Shown one piece after another: positions 6,904-19,345 of a DNA stretch of 64,000 bases; positions within the stretch are counted from its first letter, which is position 1, and each line of letters opens with the position of its first letter. The DNA is taken from contig NZ_ATUP01000001.1 in assembly GCF_000420265.1 (NCBI RefSeq), forward strand, positions 186,001 to 250,000. The letters are read 5' to 3'. The translations under genes were made by a program, and so were the position numbers. The DNA is from Oceanicaulis alexandrii DSM 11625 (lineage in GTDB: Bacteria > Pseudomonadota > Alphaproteobacteria > Caulobacterales > Maricaulaceae). A model generated the notes under the pieces. It was given only the letters and a program-made list of their open reading frames with translations, was not told the DNA's origin and made no database searches.

Positions 6904-6929
6904 AACGCGCATTCAAGGTGAAGGGTTCC
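6904..6929 (-). promoter_or_regulatory. EcfG-type promoter for the small membrane protein gene
   Basis: Minus strand GGAAC (6929-6925), 17-base spacer, CGTT (6907-6904). This matches the alphaproteobacterial sigma-EcfG consensus GGAAC-N16/17-CGTT. Predicted transcription start is near 6897, just ahead of the ATG at 6888. Confidence 0.7.
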
Positions 6930-6938
6930 GAGAAATCG

Positions 6939-6964
6939 GGAACGGACCGGTCTCATTGTGCGTT
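6939..6964 (+). promoter_or_regulatory. EcfG-type promoter for the ATP-grasp/peptidase C26 operon
   Basis: GGAAC (6939-6943), 17-base spacer, CGTT (6961-6964). Transcription would begin about 6971-6973, at or next to the ATG at 6973, implying a leaderless mRNA. Its -35 element lies 9 bases from the divergent one. Confidence 0.7.
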
Positions 6965-6972
6965 ACACCGTC

Positions 6973-8268
6973 ATGAAAACACATGCATTGATCACCTATG
7001 GCCGCAGCCTGATGGCGCTGACCATGGCGGAGTCGGTCCGGCCTTTGGTCGACCATGTCATCGGCCTGGATACGATCGGGATGACCGCCCTGTCGTTCTC
7101 CAAATACTGCGATGAGACGCGGACTGTCTGCGAGCCCTCTGACGAAGTCGCCTACACCAAGGACGTTGCAGCGATCTGCAAGGAGTTTGCGCCAGATACG
7201 GTGCTCATACTGCCAGGCTTTGAAGATATGGAAGGGCTGGCGCGTCACAGGTCGCTCTTGCCAGATAACGCGAAACTGGCGGCGCCCGATTGCGCCTCCA
7301 TCGAACAGGTGACCCCCAAGCATCATTTCGCGACTCTGATCCAGGACAACGCCATCAACGCGCCAAAGACGCAGGTCTTTGAGAGCGCAGAAGAGGCTCA
7401 AGGCGGGCCGGATATGCCGTTCCCGGTGCTGATGAAACCAAGTCGAGGCGCCGGGGGGCGCGGCATCTCAAAAGTCTCATCTGAGGATGAATACACGGCT
7501 TATCTGAAGGCGCATGAAGACCAGTATCCATTGCTGGCTCAGTCGCTGGCGGAGGGGGATGACTATTGCGTCAGCGCCTTGGCTCACAATGGCGAAGTCC
7601 TTGTGATGTCCGCCTACACCAACCTTGAGAACCAGCCTGTCGAGGCCGGCGCCGGGGTGGTGCGCGAAACAGTGAGCAGCGCCCCGTTTGAAGACGATGT
7701 GCGCAAGATCGCGAAAGCCACCAACTGGACCGGTGTCTTTGAAGCCGATTTCATGTGGACCGGCGATGAGGCGGACGCCCCTTCCGCCATTGAAGTCAAT
7801 GCACGGTTCTGGGCAGGCTTGCGTCATTCCACTCTCAGCGGCGTGGATTACGCCCGCTTGCTGGCTGAGCTGACCCTGCATGGCGGCTTGCAGTCTGATC
7901 CGGGTACGCCCGACATCGGTTTCCGCTCACAGGTTCCGCTCGCCTGGATCCCATCGGCCATCGACGGCGCGTTCAGCGAGAGCGACTACGCCAACCAGCT
8001 GTCCGATAGCTGGGACAGGCTCAAGAACTCCAAGGGATTCAGCTTGAAAAATTTCGGACGCCTGGTGGCGTCCTTGTCCGACGCCAAGGCCGCCAAGGAA
8101 GCGCTTGAGGATGTCACCCACCGCGTCATGGACCGCTCCCATCTGGACGTGGACCTTCTGGCGAAGGACGATCCAGCCGCGGCGCTCGGCGCATTGTTCA
8201 TTGTGTCTCACCTGGCCAAGTACGGAGAGCTTCCGCCAGAAGTCAGCTTTGACTCGGTCGGATCATGA
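6973..8268 (+). CDS. ATP-grasp domain protein (carboxylate-amine ligase-like)
   Basis: 431-residue protein with a preATP-grasp fold (residues 1-110) and an ATP-grasp domain. The nucleotide-binding loop reads MKPSRGAGGRGISKV (K155) and the metal-binding motif reads IEVNARFWAG (E273, N275, R277). Such enzymes join a carboxylate to an amine through an acyl phosphate; the substrate here is unknown. A GTG at 6958 would extend the frame by five codons, but it precedes the predicted transcription start, so I chose the ATG at 6973. The stop overlaps the next gene by 4 bases (ATGA), so a ligase and an amidotransferase/hydrolase-type protein are translationally coupled. Closest relatives are probably uncharacterised CarB/biotin-carboxylase-like ATP-grasp proteins. 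Confidence 0.8.
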   Translation: MKTHALITYGRSLMALTMAESVRPLVDHVIGLDTIGMTALSFSKYCDETRTVCEPSDEVAYTKDVAAICKEFAPDTVLILPGFEDMEGLARHRSLLPDNAKLAAPDCASIEQVTPKHHFATLIQDNAINAPKTQVFESAEEAQGGPDMPFPVLMKPSRGAGGRGISKVSSEDEYTAYLKAHEDQYPLLAQSLAEGDDYCVSALAHNGEVLVMSAYTNLENQPVEAGAGVVRETVSSAPFEDDVRKIAKATNWTGVFEADFMWTGDEADAPSAIEVNARFWAGLRHSTLSGVDYARLLAELTLHGGLQSDPGTPDIGFRSQVPLAWIPSAIDGAFSESDYANQLSDSWDRLKNSKGFSLKNFGRLVASLSDAKAAKEALEDVTHRVMDRSHLDVDLLAKDDPAAALGALFIVSHLAKYGELPPEVSFDSVGS

Positions 8269-8939
8269 CACGCCCCGTCATCGGTTACGTCACAGCCCCA
8301 AAAGGCGACACTCTGCTCTCTTTACTGGTCGGGGCCGTCATTCGTCTGTCCGGCGGCAAGCCCTTGCGGTTGAGACGCGAACCTGCGTCCGGCCAGAGAC
8401 AGTGTGACGGCCTTATTCTGATGGGCGGACTGGATATACATCCCAGCCGGTACGATGCCTCTATCGAGGTTGAAAGCCGGTTTGATCCGGAACGGGACGC
8501 CCTTGAAACTGATTGGCTTCAACATGCGCGCGATCATGACCTGCCGGTCATGGGCGTCTGCCGCGGGCTGCAGATGCTCAACGTCTTTTACGGGGGCGAT
8601 CTGCATCAAAAGCTCGACCCGGAGATGACGCGCGACTGGCCCAACGGTCCCATCGGCTACACCTTTTTCAGAAAGCGGATCTCCCTCACCGGAGAGAGTC
8701 TTCTCGCGGACGTTGTCGCGCCCCATGACAGCGTCTCGGTCAATAGTCTGCATCGCCGGGCGGTGCGTTCAATCGCGCCGGGTTTTCATGCTATCGCTTG
8801 CGGCGAGCGTGGCGGCGTCCAAGCCATTCAGTCCGATACGGCGCCTTTGCGCCTGGGCGTGCAGTTCCACCCTGAGCTTCTGGTTTACAGGCGCGATATG
8901 CGGCGTCTGTTCCGGACTTTTGTGAAGTCCTGCGCATAA
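8265..8939 (+). CDS. Peptidase C26 / class I glutamine amidotransferase-like protein
   Basis: 224-residue protein of the gamma-glutamyl hydrolase (PuuD-like) family. The nucleophile elbow is MGVCRGLQMLNVFYGG (C99), and the His-Glu pair lies in GVQFHPELLV (H202, E204), so the catalytic triad is complete. An oxyanion-loop motif LILMGGLDIHPSRY lies near residue 50. It overlaps the upstream ATP-grasp gene by 4 bases. PuuD-type enzymes cleave gamma-glutamyl amides, so the pair could make and break a gamma-glutamyl or similar isopeptide bond, or the C26 protein could feed ammonia to the ligase. Both are inference. A terminator follows immediately. Confidence 0.85.
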   Translation: MTRPVIGYVTAPKGDTLLSLLVGAVIRLSGGKPLRLRREPASGQRQCDGLILMGGLDIHPSRYDASIEVESRFDPERDALETDWLQHARDHDLPVMGVCRGLQMLNVFYGGDLHQKLDPEMTRDWPNGPIGYTFFRKRISLTGESLLADVVAPHDSVSVNSLHRRAVRSIAPGFHAIACGERGGVQAIQSDTAPLRLGVQFHPELLVYRRDMRRLFRTFVKSCA

Positions 8940-8940
8940 A

Positions 8941-8969
8941 AAAAGCCCCGTCCTGAGACGGGGCTTTTT
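8941..8969 (+). terminator. Bidirectional terminator
   Basis: Perfect 12-bp stem AAAAGCCCCGTC / GACGGGGCTTTT with a CTGA loop. It is flanked by A-runs on one side and T-runs on the other, so it serves both the C26 gene (+) and the entericidin gene (-). Confidence 0.9.
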
Positions 8970-8986
8970 CACGCCATAGCGGCGAT

Positions 8987-9124
8987 CTAGTTCCGGTTTT
9001 CTTCAGCCGTGTCTTCAATCGCGTCGCCAGCTTCTTCAATATCGCGACCAGCGCCAGCGATGGTGTTGCAACCGGTCAAAAGAAGAGTTGCGACGGCAAA
9101 AACACTAAGAACAACATACTTCAT
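8987..9124 (-). CDS. Entericidin A/B-type small lipoprotein
   Basis: 45-residue lipoprotein. Signal peptide MKYVVLSVFAVATLLLTGC has a lipobox LLTGC (Cys19). The mature part is about 27 residues (NTIAGAGRDIEEAGDAIEDT and a short tail), the short acidic amphipathic helix typical of the EcnA/EcnB family. The start at 9124 is fixed by a strong AGGAGG eight bases upstream and by an EcfG-type promoter at 9154-9178. Entericidins are recurrent members of stationary-phase or GSR regulons. It ends at the shared terminator 8941-8969. Confidence 0.85.
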   Translation of the reverse strand: MKYVVLSVFAVATLLLTGCNTIAGAGRDIEEAGDAIEDTAEENRN

Positions 9125-9153
9125 AAAAGCCTCCTGAGTTTGGACCTTTATAA

Positions 9154-9178
9154 AACGCGTCAGCTCAAGCCCCGTTCC
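9154..9178 (-). promoter_or_regulatory. EcfG-type promoter for the entericidin gene
   Basis: Minus strand GGAAC (9178-9174), 16-base spacer, CGTT (9157-9154). It lies between the kinase stop at 9186 and the lipoprotein start, leaving a leader of about 20 bases that contains the AGGAGG site. Confidence 0.8.
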
Positions 9179-9185
9179 CTTCAGT

Positions 9186-10886
9186 TCAATTCTTTTTCTC
9201 ACCCACTTGCAGGACAAAATCCATACCGCCGTCTGCATTGGGTTCTGACCAGGTCCGACCATCCAGCTGCATGGCGAACGCCTCCATCAAGGACGAGCCC
9301 GTGCCCTGTGAGGCGGTATCGGTCATGCCTTCGCCATCGTCAGAAATCCGTAAGGTCAACACTTCAGGAGAGTCCGCCTTCAGCGAGATCAGGATGCGCC
9401 CCTGAGTGCGGCTGGTGAACGCATGCTTGTAAGCATTCGTGACCGCTTCAGCCACGAACAGAGCCACCGGCACCGCCGTGTCAGGCTCGAACGACACGTC
9501 ATCGCACTCCGCCTGAACACTGACCGAACGCGATCCGTCATCACTGGCTTGCTGAAGATTTAGCGCCAGCTCATTCAGGAAACCGGGCATGTAGACCGCT
9601 CTGAGATCATCCGCCTCATAGAGGCTGCGATGCACAAGCGACAAGGCGTTGATCCGCCGACGCGCCTCCATCAGGGCTGTGCGCCCCTCGCCGTCTGTCA
9701 TGCGACCCGCCTGAAGATTGAGCAAGCTGACGATGATTTGAAGGTTGTTTTTGACTCGGTGGTGAATTTCCTTGAGCAAGGCGCCGCGCTGGTCGACCGC
9801 TGATTCCAGCTCGTTTTGCTGCTTTTCCAAAGACGCCGCCATCTCACCCATAGTGTTGGCCAGTTCACGAATCTCGCGCGGCGCATTTCGCGCGCGGACA
9901 GGCACAACATCCAAACGCCCGCCGCCATATACGGCCGCGATCCGGCGCAAATAGCCCAGCCAACGCAAAACATAATGGTCGACGGCCAGCCAGACGCTGG
10001 CGAGCGCCAAGGCGTACATCAAAAGCGGCACCAGAAAGGTTGCAGCGACCGAGACGAGCCCCCATTGCGTGGTCGGAGTCGGTGAGACCAACAGCAAGGC
10101 CAGCTGTCCCTCCACGAGCGGCGCAAGCACGGCGGGCCTGTCTACGCCTTCAAACCGAATGCGTGTCGGTTGCGGCTGGTCGATCTGCAGAACGCTTTCA
10201 AGCAAGTCGCTTTGAATATCGATGCTCGCCGGCTTGAGCATGCGGGAGCGGTCCACTTCCCGCGCCTCCGTCGGGGTGACAAGCAGGACCTGACTGCCAT
10301 CCGCCATAGCGTTGTCGATCAGAATTCTTGAGGCGCGAAGCACGTCAATGGCGGCCGCCGCCGTTCCTCTGAAGACTGATTCTTGTCCAAGCCGGTTGGC
10401 GACGACGAGAATAGGCGTTCTGGAAACCGGCCCCATCAAAACCCCGGAAACGGTTTGTTGCTCACCGCTGCTGAGCGCTGCGTGCCAATCCTCAGACGCC
10501 ATGTTCAGGTTTTGAGCCCCTTCAAGCCCCGAACAAATGATTTCGCCGTCCGCATCGGTCAGAGCGATGTTGGTCAACACGGTATCGCCACTGGCGATTT
10601 GCGCCATGGCGCGGCTGCACCCTCCCGGCGCGCTCATGAACGCGAAACCGCGCGTGGAGACCGCATCGACGACGCCTTGAGCCCGTGCGATGGATTCATT
10701 GAGTTCAGACGCAGCCAACGCGCCCAGAATGATCATGCGATCTCTCTGAACGCGTTGCTCTTCACGCGCTTCACTCCAGGTTTGCGCTACGGCGATCATC
10801 AGGAGTGGAAACAGCGCCACAGCGAGGACCAGGGCGAGTACGAACCGCAATCTCCCGGTCAGCTCGCCCCCAGGTTTGAAGGGCAT
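9186..10886 (-). CDS. HisKA_2/HWE-type sensor histidine kinase, likely PhyK of the general stress response
   Basis: 566 residues. TM1 is at about 12-34 and a second TM at about 280-303 encloses a roughly 240-residue periplasmic sensor. A HAMP-like linker follows, then a HisKA_2 domain with the phospho-acceptor box KEIHHRVKNNLQ (H375/H376), and an ATPase domain (VAEAVTNAYKHAF N-box, ISDDGEGM G-box). Kinases of this family phosphorylate PhyR in other alphaproteobacteria. The start lies 2 bases after the ecfG stop, so nepR-ecfG-kinase form one operon, which supports the PhyK assignment. The signal sensed is unknown. Confidence 0.85.
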   Translation of the reverse strand: MPFKPGGELTGRLRFVLALVLAVALFPLLMIAVAQTWSEAREEQRVQRDRMIILGALAASELNESIARAQGVVDAVSTRGFAFMSAPGGCSRAMAQIASGDTVLTNIALTDADGEIICSGLEGAQNLNMASEDWHAALSSGEQQTVSGVLMGPVSRTPILVVANRLGQESVFRGTAAAAIDVLRASRILIDNAMADGSQVLLVTPTEAREVDRSRMLKPASIDIQSDLLESVLQIDQPQPTRIRFEGVDRPAVLAPLVEGQLALLLVSPTPTTQWGLVSVAATFLVPLLMYALALASVWLAVDHYVLRWLGYLRRIAAVYGGGRLDVVPVRARNAPREIRELANTMGEMAASLEKQQNELESAVDQRGALLKEIHHRVKNNLQIIVSLLNLQAGRMTDGEGRTALMEARRRINALSLVHRSLYEADDLRAVYMPGFLNELALNLQQASDDGSRSVSVQAECDDVSFEPDTAVPVALFVAEAVTNAYKHAFTSRTQGRILISLKADSPEVLTLRISDDGEGMTDTASQGTGSSLMEAFAMQLDGRTWSEPNADGGMDFVLQVGEKKN

Positions 10887-10888
10887 TG

Positions 10889-11515
10889 TCAGCGTACCTG
10901 TTCCGCCAGGTCGCTGACTTGGCCAAGCAATGTATCGACAGCATCAGATGCAGCGATCCCATCCGTATTCGCCTTGGCGGCGGGACCCGCTTTCATAATA
11001 CCCTCAAGCGCCAGGCGAGCCCTGGAGACACGACTTTTCACGGTGCCGGTCGCGCAGCCGCAAATTGCTGCAGCTTCATCATAAGAGTATCCGCCCGCAC
11101 CGACGAGAATGAGCGCTTCACGCTGATCTTCGGGAAGCTCGGCAAGCCCTCGACGCAATTCATCCAGCGCCACAACCTGTTCCTGGTTGTCGACAGCCGG
11201 CAGCGTGCGTTCAGCCAACTCCTGATCCCAGTCAGCCTGTCGCCAGGACCGGCGCTTGTCTGAGTAAAACTGGTTGCGGACAATGGTGAGCACCCAGGCC
11301 CGAAAGTTCGTACCCGCTTTGAATTTAGCGCGCGCAGACCAGGCTTTCATCAGAGCGTCCTGGGCCAGGTCGTCAGCACTTGCAGCATCGCCTGTGAGGC
11401 TTCGCGCAAAGGCGCGCATGTGAGGAATGGCCTCAGTAAGCTCCAACCGGAAGTGACTTTGAGACATGATCTCTGAAGGTTTCAGGCCTGTATCGTCTGA
11501 GTCAGACTCACTCAT
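10889..11515 (-). CDS. ecfG: ECF sigma factor EcfG (general stress response)
   Basis: 208-residue group ECF15-like sigma factor. Region 2 has MRAFARSLTGDAASADDLAQ and FRAWVLTIVRNQFYSDKRR. Region 4 has LPEDQREALILVGAGGYSY and CATGTVKSRVSRAR. I chose the ATG at 11515 (MSESDSDDTGLKPSE), which overlaps the nepR stop by 8 bases with AAGGG upstream; an internal ATG at 11467 (MSQSHFRLEL) would also give a full sigma fold. It directs RNA polymerase to GGAAC-N16/17-CGTT promoters and is held by NepR until PhyR is phosphorylated. Its own operon carries such a promoter, so it is probably autoregulated. Confidence 0.93.
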   Translation of the reverse strand: MSESDSDDTGLKPSEIMSQSHFRLELTEAIPHMRAFARSLTGDAASADDLAQDALMKAWSARAKFKAGTNFRAWVLTIVRNQFYSDKRRSWRQADWDQELAERTLPAVDNQEQVVALDELRRGLAELPEDQREALILVGAGGYSYDEAAAICGCATGTVKSRVSRARLALEGIMKAGPAAKANTDGIAASDAVDTLLGQVSDLAEQVR

Positions 11516-11726
11516 GACCGTCACCCTTTTCGGTCGTTCGGTCCGACTCGCTTTGTTCCAGTCGGTCAAGAAGGTCTGCAAATGCGTCAGGCACCCCTTC
11601 ATCAACAACAGAATCAAACATATGTCGCAGCCCCGCGCCCAGAGTTTCCTGTTGCTTGCGGGTCCGCTGCACGAGCGCAGGGTCTGGCCTGCCGCCAGAT
11701 CTGTTTTTGTCCTCAGACATTGCCAT
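11508..11726 (-). CDS. nepR: Anti-sigma factor NepR
   Basis: 72-residue anti-sigma factor. The conserved two-helix core LGAGLRHMFDSVVDEGVPDA followed by FADLLDRLEQ is the diagnostic NepR motif that binds EcfG, and phosphorylated PhyR. The flanks are polar and disordered, as usual. M1 (11726) and M3 (11720) are both possible starts. It is the first gene of the nepR-ecfG-phyK operon, about 50 bases downstream of an EcfG-type promoter and divergent from phyR, which is the classical alphaproteobacterial arrangement. Confidence 0.93.
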   Translation of the reverse strand: MAMSEDKNRSGGRPDPALVQRTRKQQETLGAGLRHMFDSVVDEGVPDAFADLLDRLEQSESDRTTEKGDGHE

Positions 11727-11785
11727 TATTAATCGCCAATCTCACATGAAAACGATCATACCGAATGTATCGGCCTTAAGTGAGA

Positions 11786-11810
11786 AACGTGGAGATCGGG
11801 AATGAGTTCC
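11786..11810 (-). promoter_or_regulatory. EcfG-type promoter for nepR-ecfG-phyK
   Basis: Minus strand GGAAC (11810-11806), 16-base spacer, CGTT (11789-11786). It implies positive autoregulation of the sigma operon. Confidence 0.88.
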
Positions 11811-11829
11811 AAACAATCTGATTTTTTTT

Positions 11830-11854
11830 GGAACCCTTCTCATATTTGTTCGTT
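11830..11854 (+). promoter_or_regulatory. EcfG-type promoter for phyR
   Basis: GGAAC (11830-11834), 16-base spacer, CGTT (11851-11854), 34 bases before the phyR ATG. It is divergent from the nepR promoter, with the two -35 elements 19 bases apart. Confidence 0.88.
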
Positions 11855-11888
11855 TGTAGCGTGACACCTTTGTGGGGAGAGCCCAATT

Positions 11889-12662
11889 ATGAGTTTTGTT
11901 TCAGCGATACGCTCACACATTCCCTACCTGCGCAGATATGCGCGGATACTGACGGGATCACAGCAAAGCGGCGACGCCCATGTGCGCGCCTGCTTGGAGG
12001 CTGCTGTTGAAGGCAATGAAGAACTGGGACGGGATTTGCCGCCCCATGTAGCGCTTTTTCAATTGTTTCACGCCTGCTGGAACACCCAGCTGGACGTGAC
12101 GGAAGACGGGGAACGCCAGAATCCTCTGGCTTACGTCACCCCGAAGGCCCGGCAAGTCATGTTGCTGACGTCCGTGGAAGGATTTTCCATCGAAGACGTG
12201 GCCTCCATTCTGCGCATTGATGACAGTGAGGCTCAGGCTTTGCTGATTTCCGCGCAACAGGAGCTGAACGCCGGGCTCGCCACGCGAGTCATGATCATTG
12301 AAGACGAGCCCGTCATCGCCCTCGACCTGCGGGCCATCGTGGAAAATGCGGGGCACACGGTGACCGGCGTGGCCCGCACCCGGGACCAGGCGGTTGAGCT
12401 AGCCAAAAAATCACCGCCGGGATTGGTTCTCGCTGACATTCAGCTGGCTGACGACAGCTCAGGGATCGACGCCGTCAAAGATATTATGGGCGAGATGAAT
12501 TTGCCCGTGATCTTCATCACAGCCTACCCTGAGCGCTTGTTGACCGGCGAAAGGCCTGAACCGACTTATCTCATCACCAAGCCCTTCATGCCGGAAACCG
12601 TAACAGCCACCATGAGCCAGGCGCTGTTTTTCTTCGATAAGGACGCTGTTGCGGCAGAGTAA
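11889..12662 (+). CDS. phyR: General stress response regulator PhyR
   Basis: 257-residue anti-anti-sigma factor. The N-terminal sigma-like domain (residues 1-130, IRSHIPYLRRYARILTGSQQ) mimics EcfG. The C-terminal receiver domain (133-255) has acidic pocket E138/D139, phospho-acceptor D183 (LADIQL), T211 and K231. Phosphorylation opens the sigma-like domain to capture NepR. It starts with GGGGAG nine bases upstream and is followed by a strong terminator. It is the direct output of the kinase in the divergent operon. Confidence 0.96.
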   Translation: MSFVSAIRSHIPYLRRYARILTGSQQSGDAHVRACLEAAVEGNEELGRDLPPHVALFQLFHACWNTQLDVTEDGERQNPLAYVTPKARQVMLLTSVEGFSIEDVASILRIDDSEAQALLISAQQELNAGLATRVMIIEDEPVIALDLRAIVENAGHTVTGVARTRDQAVELAKKSPPGLVLADIQLADDSSGIDAVKDIMGEMNLPVIFITAYPERLLTGERPEPTYLITKPFMPETVTATMSQALFFFDKDAVAAE

Positions 12663-12683
12663 ATCTCGCTTCACTTCCAATCA

Positions 12684-12714
12684 AAACGCCGAGGCCCTGC
12701 CTCGGCGTTTTTTG
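12684..12714 (+). terminator. Terminator after phyR
   Basis: Perfect 13-bp stem AAAACGCCGAGGC / GCCTCGGCGTTTT with a CCT loop, followed by more T residues. Confidence 0.9.
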
Positions 12715-12790
12715 TGCGCCCAAGTTCCAATTGTGTCGAAACAAAGTCACTTGAACATAATAACTTCGCGAAATAGTCAAACTATATTTT

Positions 12791-12815
12791 GGAACACACT
12801 CAGCGCCTCAACGTT
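12791..12815 (+). promoter_or_regulatory. EcfG-type promoter for the PRC-barrel gene
   Basis: GGAAC (12791-12795), 16-base spacer, CGTT (12812-12815). The coding start at 12859 follows with a leader of about 35 bases carrying AAAAGGAAACG. Confidence 0.85.
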
Positions 12816-12858
12816 TACTTATTGCGTTCGAATTGATCGCTAGCAAAAAGGAAACGTT

Positions 12859-13584
12859 ATGTTGAACAAGCTGATGCTGACCACCTCGATCGCTCTGATT
12901 TCCACAACCGCTCTCGCAACGGCGCAAGCCCAGGACGCGATGGCGCATACGGAGACGGAGACTCACGCCGAAGCCGCCATGATGACGGAGACCGTTAAAG
13001 CGTCTGACGTTGTCGGAGCCGACCTGCAATACGCAAATGGCGCTTCCGCGATCACTGACATCCGCATGAGCGACGCCGGCGCTCCCGAAGCGCTGATCAT
13101 TTCCCGCGGCGGCTTTCTGGGCCTCTTCGATGAGGAAGTCGCGGTGTCCACCGTGGCCGCAAACCTGTCTCACAACTCAGAAGGCGAACTGGTTGTGACT
13201 GCATCCATCACGGATGCACAGCTGGATGACGCCGAAGTCATCAATGACAGCCCCTTCATGGTGTCTGTCGAGGACCAGCGTGAAGACGGGGATCTGTTTT
13301 ACAGCGACCTGACTGGCGCTGATATCCAGAACGGCGCCGGCGAGACCATCGCCCACCTTGAAGACCTGGAGTTCACGACTCAGGGCGTCACTGAATACGC
13401 CATTATTCGCGACGGCGGGTTTCTGGGTTTCGGCGGCGAAGTCGGGCGCGTTGATTTCCAGGCTCTCGAACTGGGCTACACCGCTGACGCCGGCTGGACC
13501 GTGTCAGCCGATCTGACCGCCGATGATGTCGAGATTCTGGAGGAAACCCCTGTGAATGCGGGGGCCTATCTCGACGGGCGCTAA
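12859..13584 (+). CDS. Secreted tandem PRC-barrel protein
   Basis: 241 residues with a Sec signal peptide (MLNKLMLTTSIALISTTALA, cleavage near AQA). Two related PRC-barrel units lie at about 49-110 (VVGADLQYANGASAITDIRM) and 150-210 (LTGADIQNGAGETIAHLEDL). Each has a matching GGFLGLFDEE/GGFLGFGGEV turn, so the protein is an internal duplication. PRC-barrels are known in photosynthetic reaction centre H subunit and RimM; secreted tandem versions are common but uncharacterised in alphaproteobacteria. It has its own EcfG promoter and terminator. A role in envelope stress is inferred from regulation only. Confidence 0.8.
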   Translation: MLNKLMLTTSIALISTTALATAQAQDAMAHTETETHAEAAMMTETVKASDVVGADLQYANGASAITDIRMSDAGAPEALIISRGGFLGLFDEEVAVSTVAANLSHNSEGELVVTASITDAQLDDAEVINDSPFMVSVEDQREDGDLFYSDLTGADIQNGAGETIAHLEDLEFTTQGVTEYAIIRDGGFLGFGGEVGRVDFQALELGYTADAGWTVSADLTADDVEILEETPVNAGAYLDGR

Positions 13585-13613
13585 ATGACCAAGGCCTGAC
13601 CAGCCTGAATACT

Positions 13614-13641
13614 GGGGCGCGCTACGGCGCGCCCCTTTTTT
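13614..13641 (+). terminator. Terminator after the PRC-barrel gene
   Basis: Perfect 9-bp stem GGGGCGCGC / GCGCGCCCC closed by a TACG tetraloop (UNCG type) and followed by six T residues. From here to 14016 I see no protein gene; the stretch holds the small RNA candidate and its promoter described below. Confidence 0.95.
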
Positions 13642-13855
13642 ATGAGAGCGACAGACAGGCGACAGATGCACGGCCAATCTTCGTCGACACCATCATCAGT
13701 GTCCGTCTCAGCCTCTAAAATGCGTTATAAATCCTGGCGGCCCACCGTCCCCGTCTGTCAGACAATTCCAGAGGCAGCGTCCAGGCAGGACGCACCACGA
13801 AGCGCGACGCGTCAGCCTTTAAAGCTCGAAAACTGTTGCGGCGCCGATCACCCGG

Positions 13856-13892
13856 AAACAAAAGAAGCCGCCCTCTGAAAGAGGACGGCTTC
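13856..13892 (-). terminator. Terminator of the small RNA candidate / FNT operon
   Basis: Minus-strand stem GAAGCCG-CCTCT type, with one internal mismatch, a three-base loop and TTTTGTTT after it. It would also stop read-through from the FNT operon. Confidence 0.8.
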
Positions 13893-13971
13893 GATTGACG
13901 CTGAAAGCGGTGGTCAGGGGGAGGATCGACCGTACAGCGCGATTTTCACATCCCGTCAGGGGCCGGGACAC
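13858..13971 (-). ncRNA. Candidate EcfG-dependent small RNA (GsrN-like), about 114 nt
   Basis: A perfect EcfG box at 14002-13978 on the minus strand drives no open frame. About 80 bases downstream is a rho-independent terminator (13892-13864, then TTTTGTTT). The transcript between them folds as a 5' hairpin with stem UCCCG/CGGGA and a C-rich loop GCCCCUGA (13968-13951), a small hairpin CGCU-UUC-AGCG (13909-13899), and the terminator. The motif CCCCUGAC occurs twice, in the 5' loop (13962-13955) and in the single-stranded part (13920-13913, preceded by CCUC). Caulobacter GsrN is a sigma-T-dependent small RNA with a C-rich target loop, so a GsrN-type role is plausible but not shown. It could instead be a processed 3' end of the FNT operon. 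Confidence 0.6.
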
Positions 13972-13977
13972 TTCATC

Positions 13978-14002
13978 AACGCCTGGCGCCCCACAAGGTT
14001 CC
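13978..14002 (-). promoter_or_regulatory. EcfG-type promoter of the small RNA candidate
   Basis: Minus strand GGAAC (14002-13998), 16-base spacer, CGTT (13981-13978). It lies just after the FNT stop (14017) and no reading frame with a start and RBS follows it. Confidence 0.75.
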
Positions 14003-14016
14003 AGACCGTCCTCTTC

Positions 14017-14820
14017 TTATTCGACTTCTTCGTGCACCTGACCGTACGCCAGACCCGCGAACAGAGCGGCCCCGCCAAGCGTATTGCCGATCAACACCGG
14101 AATAATGAAGCTGATCGCGTCTCCCACACCCCAAGTCCCGGCAACGATCAGAACCGTCGCCTCGACCGTACCTGCAACAATATGCGGAAAGCCCCCTGCT
14201 CCAACCAGATACGTGACGATGAAAACGGCCCCGAGCTTTTCATAGGGCAACCCGGGCAGCGACCAGGCCATGAGGCCGATCAGGAAACCGGCGGGCAGCG
14301 CAGCGATGAAATTGCCCACGATGTCGCGATGGGTGATATGCGATGACGCAGTGACCATGGCGTCAAACAGGTCCGGCTCGGTCACATGACTGAGCATGGC
14401 GCCGATAAAGACAGCTCCGACCAGATTGCCGAACAACACAATGGCCCAGAGCCTCATCAACAGGCGCACGGATCTCCACCGGCGATGCTTGGTCACCGGC
14501 AACACGGCTGTCAGCGTGTTTTCCGTAAACAATTGCATACGCGCCATGGCGATCAGAAGAAAGCCGGCCGGGTAGCCGACCGCGATGGCCAGATAGCTCC
14601 AGCTGGCATCGCCGACCGCCCGCTCGATCGCCCCCATCAGCAATACGGACGCGCCCATGGCGAGCCCCGCTGTGAGCGCGGAATACAGAAGCGAGCTGGA
14701 GGGGCGCAGAAGCTCCTCCTTACCCGTCTCGGCAATGATGGAATACAGGGTTTTAGACGCAATTTCGCTGCGCGCCGCAAATCGTTTGGCGCGCAGCTCC
14801 TGATCATTTTTTTTCGACAA
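14017..14820 (-). CDS. Formate/nitrite transporter (FNT) family channel
   Basis: 267-residue inner-membrane protein with about six hydrophobic helices. An N-terminal cytoplasmic segment (MSKKNDQELRAKRFAARSEI) precedes them, and the region after the third helix has LFGNLVGAVFIGAMLSH, the FNT-family GN(L/F)VGA signature. FNT channels pass small monocarboxylates, nitrite or hydrosulfide. It is the last gene of a five-gene minus-strand operon that starts at a GSR promoter (16052-16076), so here it probably belongs to stress-related envelope physiology rather than anaerobic formate metabolism. The substrate cannot be read from the sequence. Confidence 0.82.
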   Translation of the reverse strand: MSKKNDQELRAKRFAARSEIASKTLYSIIAETGKEELLRPSSSLLYSALTAGLAMGASVLLMGAIERAVGDASWSYLAIAVGYPAGFLLIAMARMQLFTENTLTAVLPVTKHRRWRSVRLLMRLWAIVLFGNLVGAVFIGAMLSHVTEPDLFDAMVTASSHITHRDIVGNFIAALPAGFLIGLMAWSLPGLPYEKLGAVFIVTYLVGAGGFPHIVAGTVEATVLIVAGTWGVGDAISFIIPVLIGNTLGGAALFAGLAYGQVHEEVE

Positions 14821-14831
14821 GGGAAGACCCT

Positions 14832-15194
14832 TTAACTGGAGGCCGCAAACTTTGAGAGGGCTGACAGGGCAAGCTTTGGCTTACGAGCCAGAAGCGCGCC
14901 CAGTCCCATCAAGGCTGCCGTTGTTTGCAGCGGCTTACGTTTCATTGCGGTCTCGACCAGCGCCAGAGGCGACGCTGAACTCGTAGGTGTCTGGGCTGGG
15001 GGCTTGCTCGCCTTGGCATTCCACAACAGTGTCGCCGCAGCGATTGAACCCAGGCACGCATAAAAGGCGCCGATCAGCGCGCTGGCCACCCATGGGGAGT
15101 ACTGGGTTGACGCCCAGCTCCATCCCGCATGAGTGGCGAACACTGCGCCGAGCACGGGCCCGATAAGCGCGATAGCTATCAGAAGCACGTTCAC
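14832..15194 (-). CDS. Hypothetical small membrane protein
   Basis: 120 residues, not recognised. Two to three hydrophobic helices (LLIAIALIGPVLGAVFATHA, WVASALIGAFYACLGSIAAA) lead to a Pro/Ser/Thr-rich linker. A C-terminal hydrophobic, basic segment follows (TTAALMGLGALLARKPKLAL). It sits 10 bases after the DUF883-like gene and 11 bases before the FNT gene. The layout, with a DUF883/ElaB-like neighbour, recalls YqjD-YqjE-YqjK type stress clusters in which a YqjE/holin-like protein follows a DUF883 protein. That comparison is an inference from order and size. Confidence 0.7.
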   Translation of the reverse strand: MNVLLIAIALIGPVLGAVFATHAGWSWASTQYSPWVASALIGAFYACLGSIAAATLLWNAKASKPPAQTPTSSASPLALVETAMKRKPLQTTAALMGLGALLARKPKLALSALSKFAASS

Positions 15195-15204
15195 AGCGCG
15201 TCTC

Positions 15205-15489
15205 CTAGCGACGCATCAGCAAGGCGCCAAGAAAGCCTGCGCCGATCGCGGCGCCACAGGCGCCAAGCGGGTTCTCGCGAATGAGTTCACGCAGTTGATC
15301 GGGAGCTTCTTCAGCGGCGTCCAGGCCGTCCTCAATTGCAGACCGCCCGGCTTTGACGCCAGATTCCCCGCTTTGCTGAACGATCTTGGACAGATCGCCC
15401 ACCAATTGATCCATATCCGCACGCAGCGAATCCAGATCGGCTTTGAGTTCTTCAGTCGTAACGTCGGAATTAGCAGTGGCGCGTGCCAT
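15205..15489 (-). CDS. DUF883/ElaB-YqjD-like membrane-anchored protein
   Basis: 94 residues. A long charged amphipathic helix (TEELKADLDSLRADMDQLVG) is followed by a C-terminal anchor preceded by LRELIRENPLGACGAAIGAG, the conserved ENP-type motif of DUF883 (ElaB/YqjD/YgaM). Such proteins are tail-anchored to the inner membrane and in E. coli bind stationary-phase ribosomes. It is the third gene of the GSR-driven operon, 47 bases after the acidic lipoprotein gene. Confidence 0.8.
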   Translation of the reverse strand: MARATANSDVTTEELKADLDSLRADMDQLVGDLSKIVQQSGESGVKAGRSAIEDGLDAAEEAPDQLRELIRENPLGACGAAIGAGFLGALLMRR

Positions 15490-15536
15490 GTCGCTCTCCT
15501 TTATTTCTGAAGGTTGTGATGGGCGAAAGAGACGAG

Positions 15537-15758
15537 TTAGCGAGACGGCTCGTCGGTCGCGTCTTCGATGGCGTCTTCGGCGTCATCGGCCGCGTCATCC
15601 ATGTTTTCGCCAGCTTCCTCGAACATATCCTGGTCCTCACCAGTCACGTCCTCGACCGCCTCGTCCATGTTTTCGCCAGCATTCTCAGCCGGGCCGTCAG
15701 AACAAGCCGCGGCGGCCATGAAGAACGGGGCGATGAACAGCGGGGCATACTTTTTCAT
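15537..15758 (-). CDS. Small acidic lipoprotein with internal repeat (entericidin-like)
   Basis: 73 residues. Signal peptide MKKYAPLFIAPFFMAAAACS has a lipobox-like AAAC (Cys19). The mature part is almost only acidic and Ala/Gly/Asn (SDGPAENAGENMDEAVEDV) with a repeated AGENMD unit, seen as a 17-bp direct DNA repeat at 15598-15614 and 15664-15680. Its tail AEDAIEDATDE resembles the entericidin tail AGDAIEDTAEE at 8987-9124, so the two may be divergent paralogues. The start at 15758 has AAGGA upstream. Second gene of the GSR operon. Confidence 0.75.
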   Translation of the reverse strand: MKKYAPLFIAPFFMAAAACSDGPAENAGENMDEAVEDVTGEDQDMFEEAGENMDDAADDAEDAIEDATDEPSR

Positions 15759-15839
15759 GATCAAATATCCTTGTTTGTTAAGCGGGTAAGGCAAAGTCCG
15801 GCGGCGATGACGCCGCCGAACTTGTTAGGGTCGCCTGGT

Positions 15840-16016
15840 TCAGGCTCGGGGAGATCGTCCGCGCAGCGCGCCAAACAGCAGTGACACGACGAACAGCACC
15901 AGGAACACGAAGAACAGGACTTGCGCGATCGAGGCCGCGCCAGCTGCAATGCCGCCAAAACCGAACAGGGCCGCGATCAGGGCGACGACGAAAAATCCAA
16001 GGGCCAGTCTCAGCAT
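15840..16016 (-). CDS. DUF1328/YtjA-family two-helix membrane protein
   Basis: 58 residues, [20 protein letters not shown] then a Gly/Ala turn and a second helix ([20 protein letters not shown]). This matches the size and hairpin topology of UPF0391/DUF1328. The start at 16016 has GGAG ten bases upstream and lies about 27 bases after the predicted start of the EcfG transcript. It is the first gene of the operon. DUF1328 genes are frequent GSR targets in alphaproteobacteria; molecular function is unknown. Confidence 0.85.
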
Positions 16017-16051
16017 GGGTAGCTCCTTCAATATCAAACAGTCCCCCAATC

Positions 16052-16076
16052 AACGCCCTCCGCTCAAACGAGTTCC
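16052..16076 (-). promoter_or_regulatory. EcfG-type promoter for the DUF1328-lipoprotein-DUF883-FNT operon
   Basis: Minus strand GGAAC (16076-16072), 16-base spacer, CGTT (16055-16052), 36 bases before the DUF1328 start. Confidence 0.85.
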
Positions 16077-16216
16077 CAAAATTTTTCAGAAAATACCACC
16101 TCATCTTCAGCCCTTATAATAAAGCATAGTTTTTCTCTGCATCCTCAACCCGCCGGCTTCCAATGGATTTGTTTTTGGATCCTGGAGCACGCACTTCAGA
16201 TTTACTGCTTCTTTTC

Positions 16217-16242
16217 GGAACCCATCCGCCCTGGCTCGCGTT
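16217..16242 (+). promoter_or_regulatory. EcfG-type promoter for dps
   Basis: GGAAC (16217-16221), 17-base spacer, CGTT (16239-16242). The leader to the ATG at 16273 is about 24 bases and holds ATGGAGAATTGAT. Confidence 0.75.
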
Positions 16243-16272
16243 GATACGGTCCGCAAATGATGGAGAATTGAT

Positions 16273-16782
16273 ATGAGCAGCGCCGCATTCGCGTCCAAAA
16301 CCGCCGCCTTCGCACCGAAAGCCGGTATCGAGCCAGGAGACCGCGCCGAAATTGCGGGTGCGCTCGGCAAAGTCCTCGCCGACAGCTACATGCTGTTCAT
16401 CAAGACCCAAGGCGTGCACTGGAATGTTGTCGGCCCGACCTTCTACAGCCTGCACAAGCTCACGGAAGAGCATTACGAGAACCTCTACCGCGCCATCGAC
16501 GAGCTTGCCGAGCGGATCCGCGCCCTGGGTGAGAAAGCCCCCGCCTCCTATCGAAAATATGGCGAATTGTCCGAGATCCGTGATTACGACCTGGAACAAT
16601 CCGCAGACGCGCATGTGCGCATGCTGGTGGAGGACCACCGCACAGCGGTGAAGTCCATGCGCGCCGCCATCGAATGGTGCGAAGACAAGAAAGACTTCGT
16701 CACCGCCGACATGCTGATTGAACGCATGAGCTGGCACGAAGAAGCGATCTGGATGCTCAACGCCATCATCGCCGAGCAATAG
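16273..16782 (+). CDS. dps: Dps-family DNA starvation/ferritin-like protein
   Basis: 169 residues. The four-helix Dps fold carries the inter-subunit ferroxidase motif FIKTQGVHWNVVGPTF (helix 1 His) and a second-helix Glu/Asp cluster LYRAIDELAERIRALG. Dps dodecamers oxidise and store iron with peroxide and coat DNA in stationary phase. The N-terminal 20 residues are Ala/Lys-rich (MSSAAFASKTAAFAPKAG), compatible with DNA binding. It has its own EcfG promoter and terminator, consistent with Dps as a recurrent GSR target. Confidence 0.93.
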   Translation: MSSAAFASKTAAFAPKAGIEPGDRAEIAGALGKVLADSYMLFIKTQGVHWNVVGPTFYSLHKLTEEHYENLYRAIDELAERIRALGEKAPASYRKYGELSEIRDYDLEQSADAHVRMLVEDHRTAVKSMRAAIEWCEDKKDFVTADMLIERMSWHEEAIWMLNAIIAEQ

Positions 16783-16798
16783 GCTCATCTTCTGTTGG

Positions 16799-16826
16799 AA
16801 AAGCGGGCCTGCGGGTCCGCTTTTTT
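16799..16826 (+). terminator. Terminator after dps
   Basis: Stem AAAAGCGG / CCGCTTTT, interrupted by one G-T step, with a small inner GCC/GGG pairing and six T residues. Confidence 0.75.
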
Positions 16827-16844
16827 CATGCGCGGGGACGGATC

Positions 16845-18029
16845 ATGACCCAACCTCAGAATTCATCAGCGTCAGAGGCCCTCAGTTCTGTTGAACAGAA
16901 CGTCCAAGGCGTCGTACAGCAAGGCCGCACGGCTTTTGTCGAACTTCTGGACTGGATCACCGAAGACACCCAATCGGTCACTCTGGCGCTTGCGATCACC
17001 CTAGCAGTGACAATCATCGCCCTGTTGATCAAATGGGGCGTGTCATTTGCGCGCCAGCGCACCGATCAGAGCAGTCTGGCTCATGTGTTTCTGGGCTCCG
17101 CTGATCGTATGTCAGCCATGACGTTCCTGGTTCTCGGCGCCAGTGTTGGACTAAGCGCGACCCCCTCGCCCGACAGTGTGCAGGACGCCGTCTGGTATGT
17201 GCTCGGACTTGTCCTCATCATACAGGTCGCAGCTATCGTGCGCGGCCTGGCCATCGATCTGGTGCAACGCCGCGCTCTCAAACGCGCCGACAGCCGCAGC
17301 GCGGTCTGGAACGGCATCGCCATTATCAAATGGGCGATCAGCACTTTCATCTGGTCCGCCGCACTGCTGGTTCTGCTCGATAACGCCGGCGTGGACATCA
17401 CCGCCCTGATCGCAGGCCTGGGGATTGGCGGCATTGCGATCGGTCTTGCCGCACAAGGCCTTTTCAGTGACTTGTTCGCCGGCATATCGATCCTGTTTGA
17501 TAAACCTTTTCAGCGCGATGACTTCATCGAGTTTGGCGACTTTCTAGGCACGGTCAGCAAGATCGGACTTAAGACCACACGCTTGCGCTCGTTGTCGGGC
17601 GAAGAGGTCGTCATCCGGAACACCAATCTGCTCGACGAGACGATCCGCAATTACCAACGGCTGGATGAGCGGCGCTGGTTGTTTCAGATTGGCGTCACCT
17701 ATCAGACCGGGGCGGATCAGCTTGAGCAGATCCCCGGATGGATCAAATCCATTATCGAGGAGACCGATCAGGCTCGCTTTGAGCGCGCCCATTTCGCCCG
17801 GTTCGCCGACAGCGCTCTGGAATTCGAGATCGTCTGTCACGCACAGAGCATGGACTACGCCGTCTTCATGGATGTGCGACACGCCGTGAATCTCGCGCTT
17901 GTCCGCAAGTTCGCCGAGGAAGGAGTCGAGTTCGCCTATCCCACGCGCACTTTGATGATCGCCCGCGAAGACGGCTCGGTGATCGACCCCGCCGCATCAA
18001 CACAGACCCAGGAAAGGGATGAGCAATGA
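16845..18029 (+). CDS. MscS-family mechanosensitive ion channel
   Basis: 394 residues. About four TM helices are followed by the conserved pore helix and beta-domain entry (GIGGIAIGLAAQGLFSDLFA, then ISILFDKPFQRDDFI). A soluble MscS C-terminal domain ends in the YPTRTL motif. These channels open on hypo-osmotic shock to release solutes. It overlaps the next gene by 4 bases (ATGA). I find no EcfG box in the 60-base gap after the dps terminator, so its own promoter is unclear; read-through from dps is possible. Confidence 0.92.
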   Translation: MTQPQNSSASEALSSVEQNVQGVVQQGRTAFVELLDWITEDTQSVTLALAITLAVTIIALLIKWGVSFARQRTDQSSLAHVFLGSADRMSAMTFLVLGASVGLSATPSPDSVQDAVWYVLGLVLIIQVAAIVRGLAIDLVQRRALKRADSRSAVWNGIAIIKWAISTFIWSAALLVLLDNAGVDITALIAGLGIGGIAIGLAAQGLFSDLFAGISILFDKPFQRDDFIEFGDFLGTVSKIGLKTTRLRSLSGEEVVIRNTNLLDETIRNYQRLDERRWLFQIGVTYQTGADQLEQIPGWIKSIIEETDQARFERAHFARFADSALEFEIVCHAQSMDYAVFMDVRHAVNLALVRKFAEEGVEFAYPTRTLMIAREDGSVIDPAASTQTQERDEQ

Positions 18030-18292
18030 CCAAGGACCATGGCCCGTCTGTGAAGGACGACGAAACCTATGAAGCCCTGCGCGAGGACGGCGCGTCGAAA
18101 TCCAAAGCCGCCCGTATCGCCAACGCCCAGGCGTCCGATGATGACGACGCGGCCGCGAAAGGCGGCGCACATAAACCCTATGAGGACTGGACGAAAGACG
18201 AGCTGTACGACCGCGCCCAGGAGATCGGCATTGAAGGGCGTTCGGATATGACCAAGGACGAACTGATCAAGGCGTTGCGCGACGGACAATAA
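18026..18292 (+). CDS. Small charged protein with Rho-N/SAP-like C-terminal motif
   Basis: 88 residues. The N-terminal half is charged and reads like the DUF7218 type (SKSKAARIANAQASDDDDAA). The C-terminal half has two short Rho_N/SAP-like motifs (WTKDELYDRAQEIGIEGRSD, then MTKDELIKALRD). Similar proteins are found beside stress genes in many alphaproteobacteria, and nucleic-acid binding is suggested by the SAP-like helices. It overlaps mscS by 4 bases, so the two are co-translated. Confidence 0.75.
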   Translation: MTKDHGPSVKDDETYEALREDGASKSKAARIANAQASDDDDAAAKGGAHKPYEDWTKDELYDRAQEIGIEGRSDMTKDELIKALRDGQ

Positions 18293-18323
18293 TCATCAAT
18301 CAAATTTCTGACGCAGGAGAAAT

Positions 18324-18348
18324 GGAACTGCTCCTACCGTTCGGCGTT
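18324..18348 (+). promoter_or_regulatory. EcfG-type promoter for the 18378 gene
   Basis: GGAAC (18324-18328), 16-base spacer, CGTT (18345-18348), 30 bases before the ATG at 18378. Confidence 0.82.
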
Positions 18349-18377
18349 ATTATTACAGACTGAATTGGGAGGACATC

Positions 18378-18932
18378 ATGCTCGTAGCAACCGCTGCTTT
18401 GCTTGTCTTGCAGACTGCATCCACTTCGAGCGTGCAGGCGTCCTCTGACGCGCATATTCCCGATCCTGTACTGCGTAATTTTACTCAGCAGTTGCAGGCG
18501 GAATTCGGCGAGACCAGCGACAGCGCCTGGTCCATTCCGCTCGGCGGCCACGAGCATGCGTCTCTGATCCCCACCCTCTCCGCGCAAAACGAAAGCCGCC
18601 AAGACAGCGACGAACTGTCAGCCTTCGGCGTGGGCCTTGAGCTGGAGACCAGCCCCCTCGCCTTCCGGTCGATCTCCCGGCTCAGCCTGATCGTCTCCTA
18701 TGACCAGGAGACGGTGATCATGCGTCCGGGTGGCGGCGGCGTCAGCGCTCTCACCCGCGTGGCCGGTGAAATCGGCGTGGCGGACGGCTTTGCCGGCGTG
18801 GGCATGTCGCTCAATGACCATGGCGCAGTGACCGCGGGCTATATCCGGCAAAAACGCGAAATCCGTTTTGGTGAGAACAGCTGGGACGCCCAATCGGATT
18901 TCGTCGGGCTGACTTATCGTCAGGCCTGGTGA
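18378..18932 (+). CDS. Hypothetical exported protein, GSR-controlled
   Basis: 184 residues, not recognised. A short signal peptide (MLVATAALLVLQTASTSSVQA) is followed by a soluble region. From about residue 85 the sequence alternates hydrophobic and polar residues with turns (FGVGLELETSPLAFRSISRL, VGMSLNDHGAVTAGYIRQKR) and ends DFVGLTYRQAW. The aromatic-terminated beta-strand pattern suggests a small outer-membrane beta-barrel, but this is inference. The start has GGGAGG seven bases upstream and an EcfG box 30 bases upstream. It ends 2 bases from the convergent DUF202 gene. Confidence 0.75.
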   Translation: MLVATAALLVLQTASTSSVQASSDAHIPDPVLRNFTQQLQAEFGETSDSAWSIPLGGHEHASLIPTLSAQNESRQDSDELSAFGVGLELETSPLAFRSISRLSLIVSYDQETVIMRPGGGGVSALTRVAGEIGVADGFAGVGMSLNDHGAVTAGYIRQKREIRFGENSWDAQSDFVGLTYRQAW

Positions 18933-18933
18933 G

Positions 18934-19299
18934 CTAGACCAGCCAGATAACGAGCACAGCGCCCATCGCGCCGAGCCCCAGGCCGGCCGACACGACCTCT
19001 CCCAACCAGACAGATCGCCCTTCCAGACAGTGTGCGCTGAGTGAGCGCGCAACCGCCCGGTCGCGCAATCGTCCCATCACGATCAATCCCACAGCCAGAA
19101 GCATGAACAGGCTGGAGATCAGCTTGGCGACCCATGTGGGTTCAAAGCTGTCGAACACGACCTGCATGCCCAGCCCCACGCCGATCGCCGCCAACGCCGT
19201 GCGAAGCCAGCTGGCGAAAGTGCGTTCACTCGCCATCAGAGTGCGGTCTTCGGCCCAGTTCGTACGATCTTCGGCAAGCTCTGTTTTCCTAACGGTCAT
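18934..19299 (-). CDS. YidH/DUF202 family inner-membrane protein
   Basis: 121 residues. It has the N-terminal conserved segment LMASERTFASWLRTALAAIG of DUF202, followed by three TM helices (the last is LGLGAMGAVLVIWLV). It is divergent from the secreted protein gene at 19386. No EcfG box is visible on its strand, unlike its neighbours. Function unknown; E. coli YidG/YidH are the nearest named relatives. Confidence 0.85.
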   Translation of the reverse strand: MTVRKTELAEDRTNWAEDRTLMASERTFASWLRTALAAIGVGLGMQVVFDSFEPTWVAKLISSLFMLLAVGLIVMGRLRDRAVARSLSAHCLEGRSVWLGEVVSAGLGLGAMGAVLVIWLV

Positions 19300-19320
19300 C
19301 CCGGCCCTCTGAGAAAACCG

Positions 19321-19345
19321 GGAACCGGTCGGCCGATGACACGTT
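19321..19345 (+). promoter_or_regulatory. EcfG-type promoter for the 19386-20310 gene pair
   Basis: GGAAC (19321-19325), 16-base spacer, CGTT (19342-19345). A leader of about 35 bases carries AAGGAGG before the ATG at 19386. Confidence 0.85.

Follow-up and report, generated by a model that had tools for sequence, protein, structure and literature searches.

Only one small RNA of the alphaproteobacterial general stress response (GSR), GsrN, was found characterised in the literature searched (PMC5869019). GsrN of Caulobacter crescentus (ccna_R0081) is transcribed from an EcfG-type (sigma-T) promoter, is about 100 nt long and presents an exposed C-rich loop; its gene usually lies near the GSR genes, although in C. 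crescentus itself it does not (PMC5869019). BLASTN searches by the authors of that study confined GsrN to the Caulobacteraceae, and more candidate sRNAs of the GSR have been named from their position, a promoter box and, for some, expression (PMC5869019). Two further systems bear on the locus described here. SisA of Caulobacter represses the messages of TonB receptors via an anti-Shine-Dalgarno-type motif (PMC12559287), and the rhizobial RNAs SmelA075 and SmelA099 carry CCUCCUCCC in each hairpin loop on variable stems (PMC3927594). Our comparisons refer to the accessible portions of these three reports. A description of an sRNA from Oceanicaulis, or of the RNA treated here, was not found in the literature searched.

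The DNA under study, hereafter the window, is a 64-kb stretch of the Oceanicaulis alexandrii DSM 11625 genome. A sequence-only reading of it had proposed a perfect EcfG box past a gene for a formate/nitrite transporter (FNT), followed by a strong terminator, with no reading frame behind the box and a transcript of roughly 114 nt; these elements were all recovered (Table 1). On the minus strand, the box begins 14 nt past the FNT stop. We placed the 5′ end of the RNA 6–7 nt past CGTT and its 3′ end at the T tail of the terminator, which is T-rich. The resulting 112-nt RNA (13972–13861) folds with −46.8 kcal/mol and a z-score of −4.6, a value equalled by none of 200 shuffled sequences. In the whole window, a relaxed EcfG box with a terminator no more than 170 nt downstream occurs at this site only, and a rule combining a box, a C-tract and a terminator (set after the first 20 loci had been seen) likewise returned this gene as its single match. 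The reading had also pointed to two identical C-rich motifs. Both copies of CCCCUGAC are present (13962–13955 and 13920–13913), with CCUC directly before the second, but the latter forms the loop of hairpin 2 and is not a plain linker.

Table 1. Features of the predicted sRNA gene and of its neighbourhood in the window.
Feature	Position	Strand	Basis
EcfG (sigma-EcfG) promoter box, GGAAC-N16-CGTT	13978..14002	-	motif; 9/9 box positions invariant in three Oceanicaulis genomes
Predicted small RNA, about 110–115 nt	13858..13972	-	fold z −4.6; conserved in L033 and L034; model R1
Hairpin 1, UCCCG-GCCCCUGA-CGGGA	13951..13968	-	fold and alignment
Hairpin 2, C-rich motif in loop	13898..13940	-	fold and alignment
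Conserved seed CCUCCCCC, anti-Shine-Dalgarno-like	13917..13924	-	8/8 invariant; mean unpaired probability 0.89
Intrinsic terminator, 13-bp stem, loop of 3, tail TTTTGTTT	13864..13892	-	23/29 invariant
FNT (formate/nitrite transporter) gene, upstream neighbour	14017..14820	-	PF01226; tblastn: same neighbour in G007, G014
phyR (GSR anti-anti-sigma factor)	11889..12662	+	PhyR family models; own EcfG box at 11830
nepR-ecfG genes of the general stress response	10889..11726	-	EcfG box at 11810(-); NepR PF18557, ECF-type sigma domains

Two relatives carry the RNA, Oceanicaulis sp. HTCC2633 (G007) and MMSF_3324 (G014); the genome of the window is referred to as G000. When the region was compared by BLASTN with 99 genomes, G007 gave the one convincing match beside the window itself (E 5e-6), and the copy of the box-RNA-terminator unit in G014 was found by inspecting phyR loci. 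In all three genomes the RNA gene lies behind FNT and opposite phyR. The two halves of the promoter are invariant (GGAAC 5/5, CGTT 4/4), while only 3 of the 16 spacer positions are, and the gap from the FNT stop to the box diverges. In hairpin 1, five of five and three of five arm positions are unchanged, and the loop keeps 2/8 positions and at least CCC in each genome. The linker between the hairpins retains one position in ten. All eight bases of the seed CCUCCCCC are invariant and none of the next five. Promoter and terminator are thus kept in both close relatives that retain the GSR. RNAalifold recovers the same three helices (hairpin 1, hairpin 2 and the terminator) from the three sequences, and 3 of the 29 base pairs have both partners changed in one or more of these closely related sequences; in hairpin 2, three pairs differ on both sides. 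A conserved reading frame was not seen in the alignment, and the sequence changes within the RNA gene sit in loops and linkers. The seed is not duplicated as had been supposed: the relatives have CCCCGCC or UCCCACG in place of the first copy, CCCCUGA. The promoter, the second C-motif and the terminator are, judged by this alignment, under constraint, and the first copy of CCCCUGA is not.

The sRNA gene lies 1–3 kb from phyR, nepR and ecfG, the last of which owes its name to position and homology; the end of phyR is 1.2 kb from the sRNA terminator, on the opposite strand and with one gene between. Sites of the form GGAAC-N16–18-CGTT number 12 in the window against 1.45 expected. EcfG boxes are clustered at 6904–19345, where they precede phyR, nepR, a PRC-barrel gene (12859), a ferritin/Dps-like gene (16273) and others and include a divergent pair at 6904/6939, and this region has the look of a general-stress regulon neighbourhood.

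PhyR (E ≤ 1e-45) is found in 5 of the 15 genomes of the genus, that of the window included, with 86–100% identity in G000, G007 and G014, 70% in G010 and 49% in G013. The ten genomes that yielded no such match (G001–G006, G008, G009, G011 and G012) include two single-contig genomes of 100% completeness, G011 and G012, and weaker EcfG-like matches (E 1e-32 to 1e-37) occur in the PhyR-less G006, G011 and G012. From these searches, the GSR seems to have been lost or replaced across much of the genus. We built a covariance model, R1, from the three Oceanicaulis RNAs. Over 99 genomes, its three training sequences scored 113–131 bits and the next best site 31.8 bits, among at most 37 first-look candidates scored per genome. 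No candidate scored in the ten PhyR-less genomes of the genus exceeded 23.9 bits, and in the PhyR-bearing G010 and G013 no such RNA was found among the up to 37 candidates scored per genome. A GGAAC-N16/17-CGTT promoter kept together with the GSR, as expected of a member of the EcfG regulon, is therefore what this RNA gene shows.

The sequence-only reading had likened the RNA to GsrN in design and had named a covariance-model search as a check. The likeness extends to the promoter type with its EcfG box upstream, the size, a terminator (seen in GsrN homologues), the proximity to GSR core genes and an exposed C-rich loop; family membership was not borne out by the models. A second covariance model, R2, built from 14 GsrN genes, detects GsrN at all nine phyR loci of family f3 (87–126 bits), five of which are in its training set. 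The Rfam family RF01529 (‘CC3552’) matches f3-type RNAs, namely those of Caulobacter sp. AP07, of a Brevundimonas and of two f3 loci. We infer from the RF01529 matches that f3 corresponds to the Caulobacteraceae. RF01529 itself we equate with GsrN on the strength of these matches, of the citation of Landt et al. (2008) for the RNA in the accessible text of the GsrN paper, and of the fit between the complement of the C-tract and several of the target motifs in Table 1 of that paper (PMC5869019). For the window RNA, RF01529 gave no match at E up to 5, the other Rfam families gave none at threshold, and R2 returned 14.3 bits over the terminator part only. The two RNAs also differ in build. The window RNA presents CCUCCCCC, with a U followed by five consecutive C, in an apical loop, whereas GsrN, for which six or so tandem C are the criterion, holds its seed GCCCCCCCGAC in a multiloop; unlike GsrN, the window RNA possesses an extra 5′ hairpin and lies opposite phyR. 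Further marks of the GsrN family are processing to a stable 5′ isoform, stabilisation by Hfq and activation of katG through pairing with its leader. On sequence grounds, the window RNA would resemble GsrN in its working without demonstrable descent from it, and the models do not place it in the family.

The alpha-r8 RNAs (SisA-D and MmgR) share with the window RNA a single-stranded anti-Shine-Dalgarno stretch and a terminator (PMC12559287). As far as the available text of that report describes the group, membership does not extend to the window RNA: the core UUUCCUCCCU is missing, the neighbouring gene is FNT and not that for an N-formylglutamate amidohydrolase (FGase), the promoter is of the EcfG type and the motif sits inside a closed loop. 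Like the window RNA, SmelA075 and SmelA099 display their anti-Shine-Dalgarno motif in hairpin loops (PMC3927594). They do so in three or four loops, in contrast to the one conserved loop with CCUCCCCC here, and the accessible text of PMC3927594 does not mention an EcfG box.

The core of the anti-Shine-Dalgarno sequence is CCUCC. In the three Oceanicaulis RNAs the seed is unpaired with a probability of 0.89–0.97, compared with 0.33–0.36 for the remainder of the molecule. Perfect AGGGGGAGG sites are genome-wide no commoner than those of the reversed control (18, 22 and 19 versus 16, 24 and 17 in the three genomes). Such a site forms the Shine-Dalgarno sequence of a TonB-dependent receptor gene (Plug domain) in G000, where in our reading it is preceded by a putative Fur-like palindrome, and that of a DctP protein gene (PF03480) in G007 and G014; the orthologues not picked in this way have a shorter site (GGGGGAG for the receptor in G007 and G014, GGGGAGGA for DctP in G000). 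Two further AGGGGGAGG sites align in all three genomes, one within a coding sequence and one unexplained.

Seed pairing was computed against leaders from −40 to +15, with gene starts taken from a crude in-house call. At its Shine-Dalgarno site the receptor leader pairs with −26.6, −25.4 and −21.8 kcal/mol in G000, G007 and G014, respectively, values equalled or bettered by 0/183, 2/134 and 3/118 background leaders and by 0, 5 and 14 of 300 shuffled seeds. For the DctP leader, the energies are −19.3, −28.6 and −20.8 kcal/mol, with 8/183, 0/134 and 3/118 background leaders and 33, 0 and 19 of 300 shuffled seeds doing as well. These ranks, 0–4.4%, would still let in dozens of genes per genome; moreover, the choice of both genes came from lists of perfect matches in one genome or two, and the leaders of orthologues do not count as independent cases. 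No close orthologue of the receptor turned up in a search of 15 further genomes, 12 of them from the genus, where the top matches were 38–40% identical. As a further candidate target katG-2 was set aside: its perfect AGGGGGAGG site, some 550 nt ahead of the gene in G000 and G007, falls inside a tRNA-Ser gene.

The box, C-tract and terminator rule was also applied outside the genus. In 53 phyR loci it matched 11, once each, while 20 shuffled sets together gave three matches and the controls with a G-tract or with reversed sequence gave none; the 32 loci fetched later contributed three finds, all of the GsrN type. With a looser box, 17 of 80 named loci matched (G-control 0): ten of these have a GsrN core, two are the Oceanicaulis pair and one, from Bosea, looks coding. 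The rule misses the RNAs of G026 and G092, which were found otherwise. The f1 RNAs from outside the genus (G017, G034 and G023, and by eye G026) hold CCCUCCCCC or CCCCCC in a loop. Candidates of the same composition turned up in other orders in Sphingomonas lenta (L120, 7947, minus strand) and Denitrobaculum (L132, 7332, minus strand).

Across the order, 56 of 398 genomes contained a box plus CCUCCCCC pattern and 37 contained the reversed control, a modest excess; the pattern misses G007, G023 and G026, and only recurrent matches at one place were accepted. In genus g31 of family f4 it occurs in 14 of 30 genomes (reversed control 0/30), and 12 of the 14 matches represent one RNA at one place (L290–L302 except L296; box at about position 1501 or the mirror position; CCCUCCCCC loop). 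This RNA adjoins the same histidine kinase gene in 12/12 cases, and in 11 of them a LysR gene runs divergently from it, the twelfth locus being cut by the end of its contig; for the LysR protein the best NCBIfam model is OxyR, with 199.7 bits, below the cut-off of 329 bits. All 12 genomes have PhyR, as do five of seven further f4 genomes (absent in G085 and G109), and in G138, G148 and G168 of g31 PhyR is present, yet the pattern gave no match. In the RNAalifold structure of the f4 alignment the C-tract pairs with a downstream G-tract, whereas 11 of 12 folds of single sequences show it unpaired. A 5′ CCCCGC and the C-tract compete for this one G-tract, a competition that, in the folding models, could be a switch. 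In genus g15, G028 (L317, about 1529) and G042 (L318) share a homologous EcfG-box RNA with a long closing stem and a ACCCUCCCCC loop; it lies away from the phyR locus and has no Rfam match, and a TPP riboswitch is located on the same short stretch. Among the 12 further sites, these two look like one RNA, nine others look coding, repetitive or unclear, and a C-rich hairpin without a terminator occurs at a site in G010. A small gene resembling that of a lipoprotein, with a product that begins MKTLPLK, follows an EcfG-like box in seven f3 genomes (L305–L307, L309, L311–L313); this match to the pattern is coding and not an sRNA. On the f4 and g15 RNAs R1 scored a non-significant 9.5–11.5 bits, three of four matches falling on the RNA, and R2 found none. 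The motif is unpaired with a probability of at least 0.89 in 20 of 21 RNAs from outside the Caulobacteraceae (0.27 in G105 of f4) and of at least 0.87 in 13/13 GsrN RNAs; for the g31 and g15 RNAs, the pattern had selected for the presence of CCUCCCCC but not for its exposure. Predicted RNAs of this design recur in other Caulobacterales lineages and may be one drifting family or repeated inventions.

Several other explanations of the Oceanicaulis locus were weighed. The RNA might be a GsrN orthologue whose sequence has drifted while its promoter, C-rich loop and terminator stayed in place at the GSR locus, and it might activate certain messages in the way GsrN activates katG. This has a genuine chance of being right, although we lean against it. 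Promoter type, size, exposed C-tract and a position downstream of phyR, where 9/9 f3 loci carry GsrN, all fit, and the G023 RNA forms a weak bridge, scoring 21.7 bits with R1 (E 0.03) at a site found by the rule, in a list that holds chance sites of 22–23 bits. Orthology sits poorly, however, with the R2 score confined to the terminator and the silence of RF01529, with the differences in shape, orientation and seed, and with katG-1 leaders that offer the seed only a Shine-Dalgarno match of 6–7 nt. We think it unlikely that the box is EcfG-like by chance and that the region is the 3′ untranslated region and terminator of FNT, any RNA being a processed FNT tail. The FNT stop is close, and on that strand the terminator is the sole such site found from FNT to 13864; yet the box halves are invariant where spacer and gap diverge, the seed is invariant and open, and the rule found no such unit in twenty 20-kb stretches (400 kb) of other DNA from the three Oceanicaulis genomes. 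Origins from the sRNA promoter and from an FNT tail could coexist.

Feedback on the GSR genes themselves, which the sequence-only reading had suggested from a pairing of CUCCCC with GGGGAG at the ribosome site of phyR, did not survive and is very unlikely. All three genomes keep the GGGGAG, which matches a stretch of 6 nt in the seed, but the phyR leader pairs with just −12.6 kcal/mol in G000, and 73/183, 50/134 and 46/118 leaders do as well or better (28/56, 5/22 and 6/21 in the first, smaller sets). That the locus encodes a short peptide is hardly credible: an ATG stands just behind the box in the window and opens a six-codon frame, ATGAAGTGTCCCGGCCCCTGA, which is missing from the G007 and G014 sequences in the alignment, and the changes fall in loops and linkers.

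We consider it probable that the locus is a real sRNA gene of the Oceanicaulis GSR, whose EcfG-driven RNA of about 110 nt pairs through the CCUCCCCC loop of hairpin 2 with G-rich Shine-Dalgarno leaders. Its anatomy, its conservation alongside the GSR and the exposure of its motif are computed observations, and the conserved gene is, by its sequence, very probably stress-switched. Under stress, sigma-EcfG would transcribe it from the box to an end at about 13860, hairpin 2 would keep the motif open, and CCUCCCCC would pair chiefly with Shine-Dalgarno sites of the GGGGGAGG type, possibly with a contribution of Hfq. Such pairing would most likely block ribosome entry, and the best candidate targets are outer-membrane and substrate-uptake genes (the TonB-dependent receptor and the DctP solute-binding protein). 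By analogy, we favour repression at the ribosome site over GsrN-like activation because SisA, according to the accessible text, represses a TonB receptor via such a motif (PMC12559287) and because of the pairing computed for the receptor and DctP leaders.

The Oceanicaulis RNA would be a second type of GSR sRNA, distinct in sequence, sharply delimited in its footprint and with a short seed amenable to testing. It suggests that the general stress response of alphaproteobacteria includes a C-rich sRNA as a permanent component. Two named strains that carry the RNA, Oceanicaulis sp. HTCC2633 and MMSF_3324, are open to deletion and target work. More tentatively, and with some doubt, EcfG-driven sRNAs may be an order-wide, fast-evolving class in which only a CCCUCCCCC-like loop is constant and of which GsrN is the Caulobacteraceae branch. 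If true, these RNAs would move around the genome or have repeated origins, lying beside FNT in Oceanicaulis and next to an oxyR-like gene, in divergent orientation, in f4, and stress-induced anti-Shine-Dalgarno RNAs would give the alphaproteobacterial GSR an arm of translational repression comparable to that provided by RybB and MicA for sigma-E.
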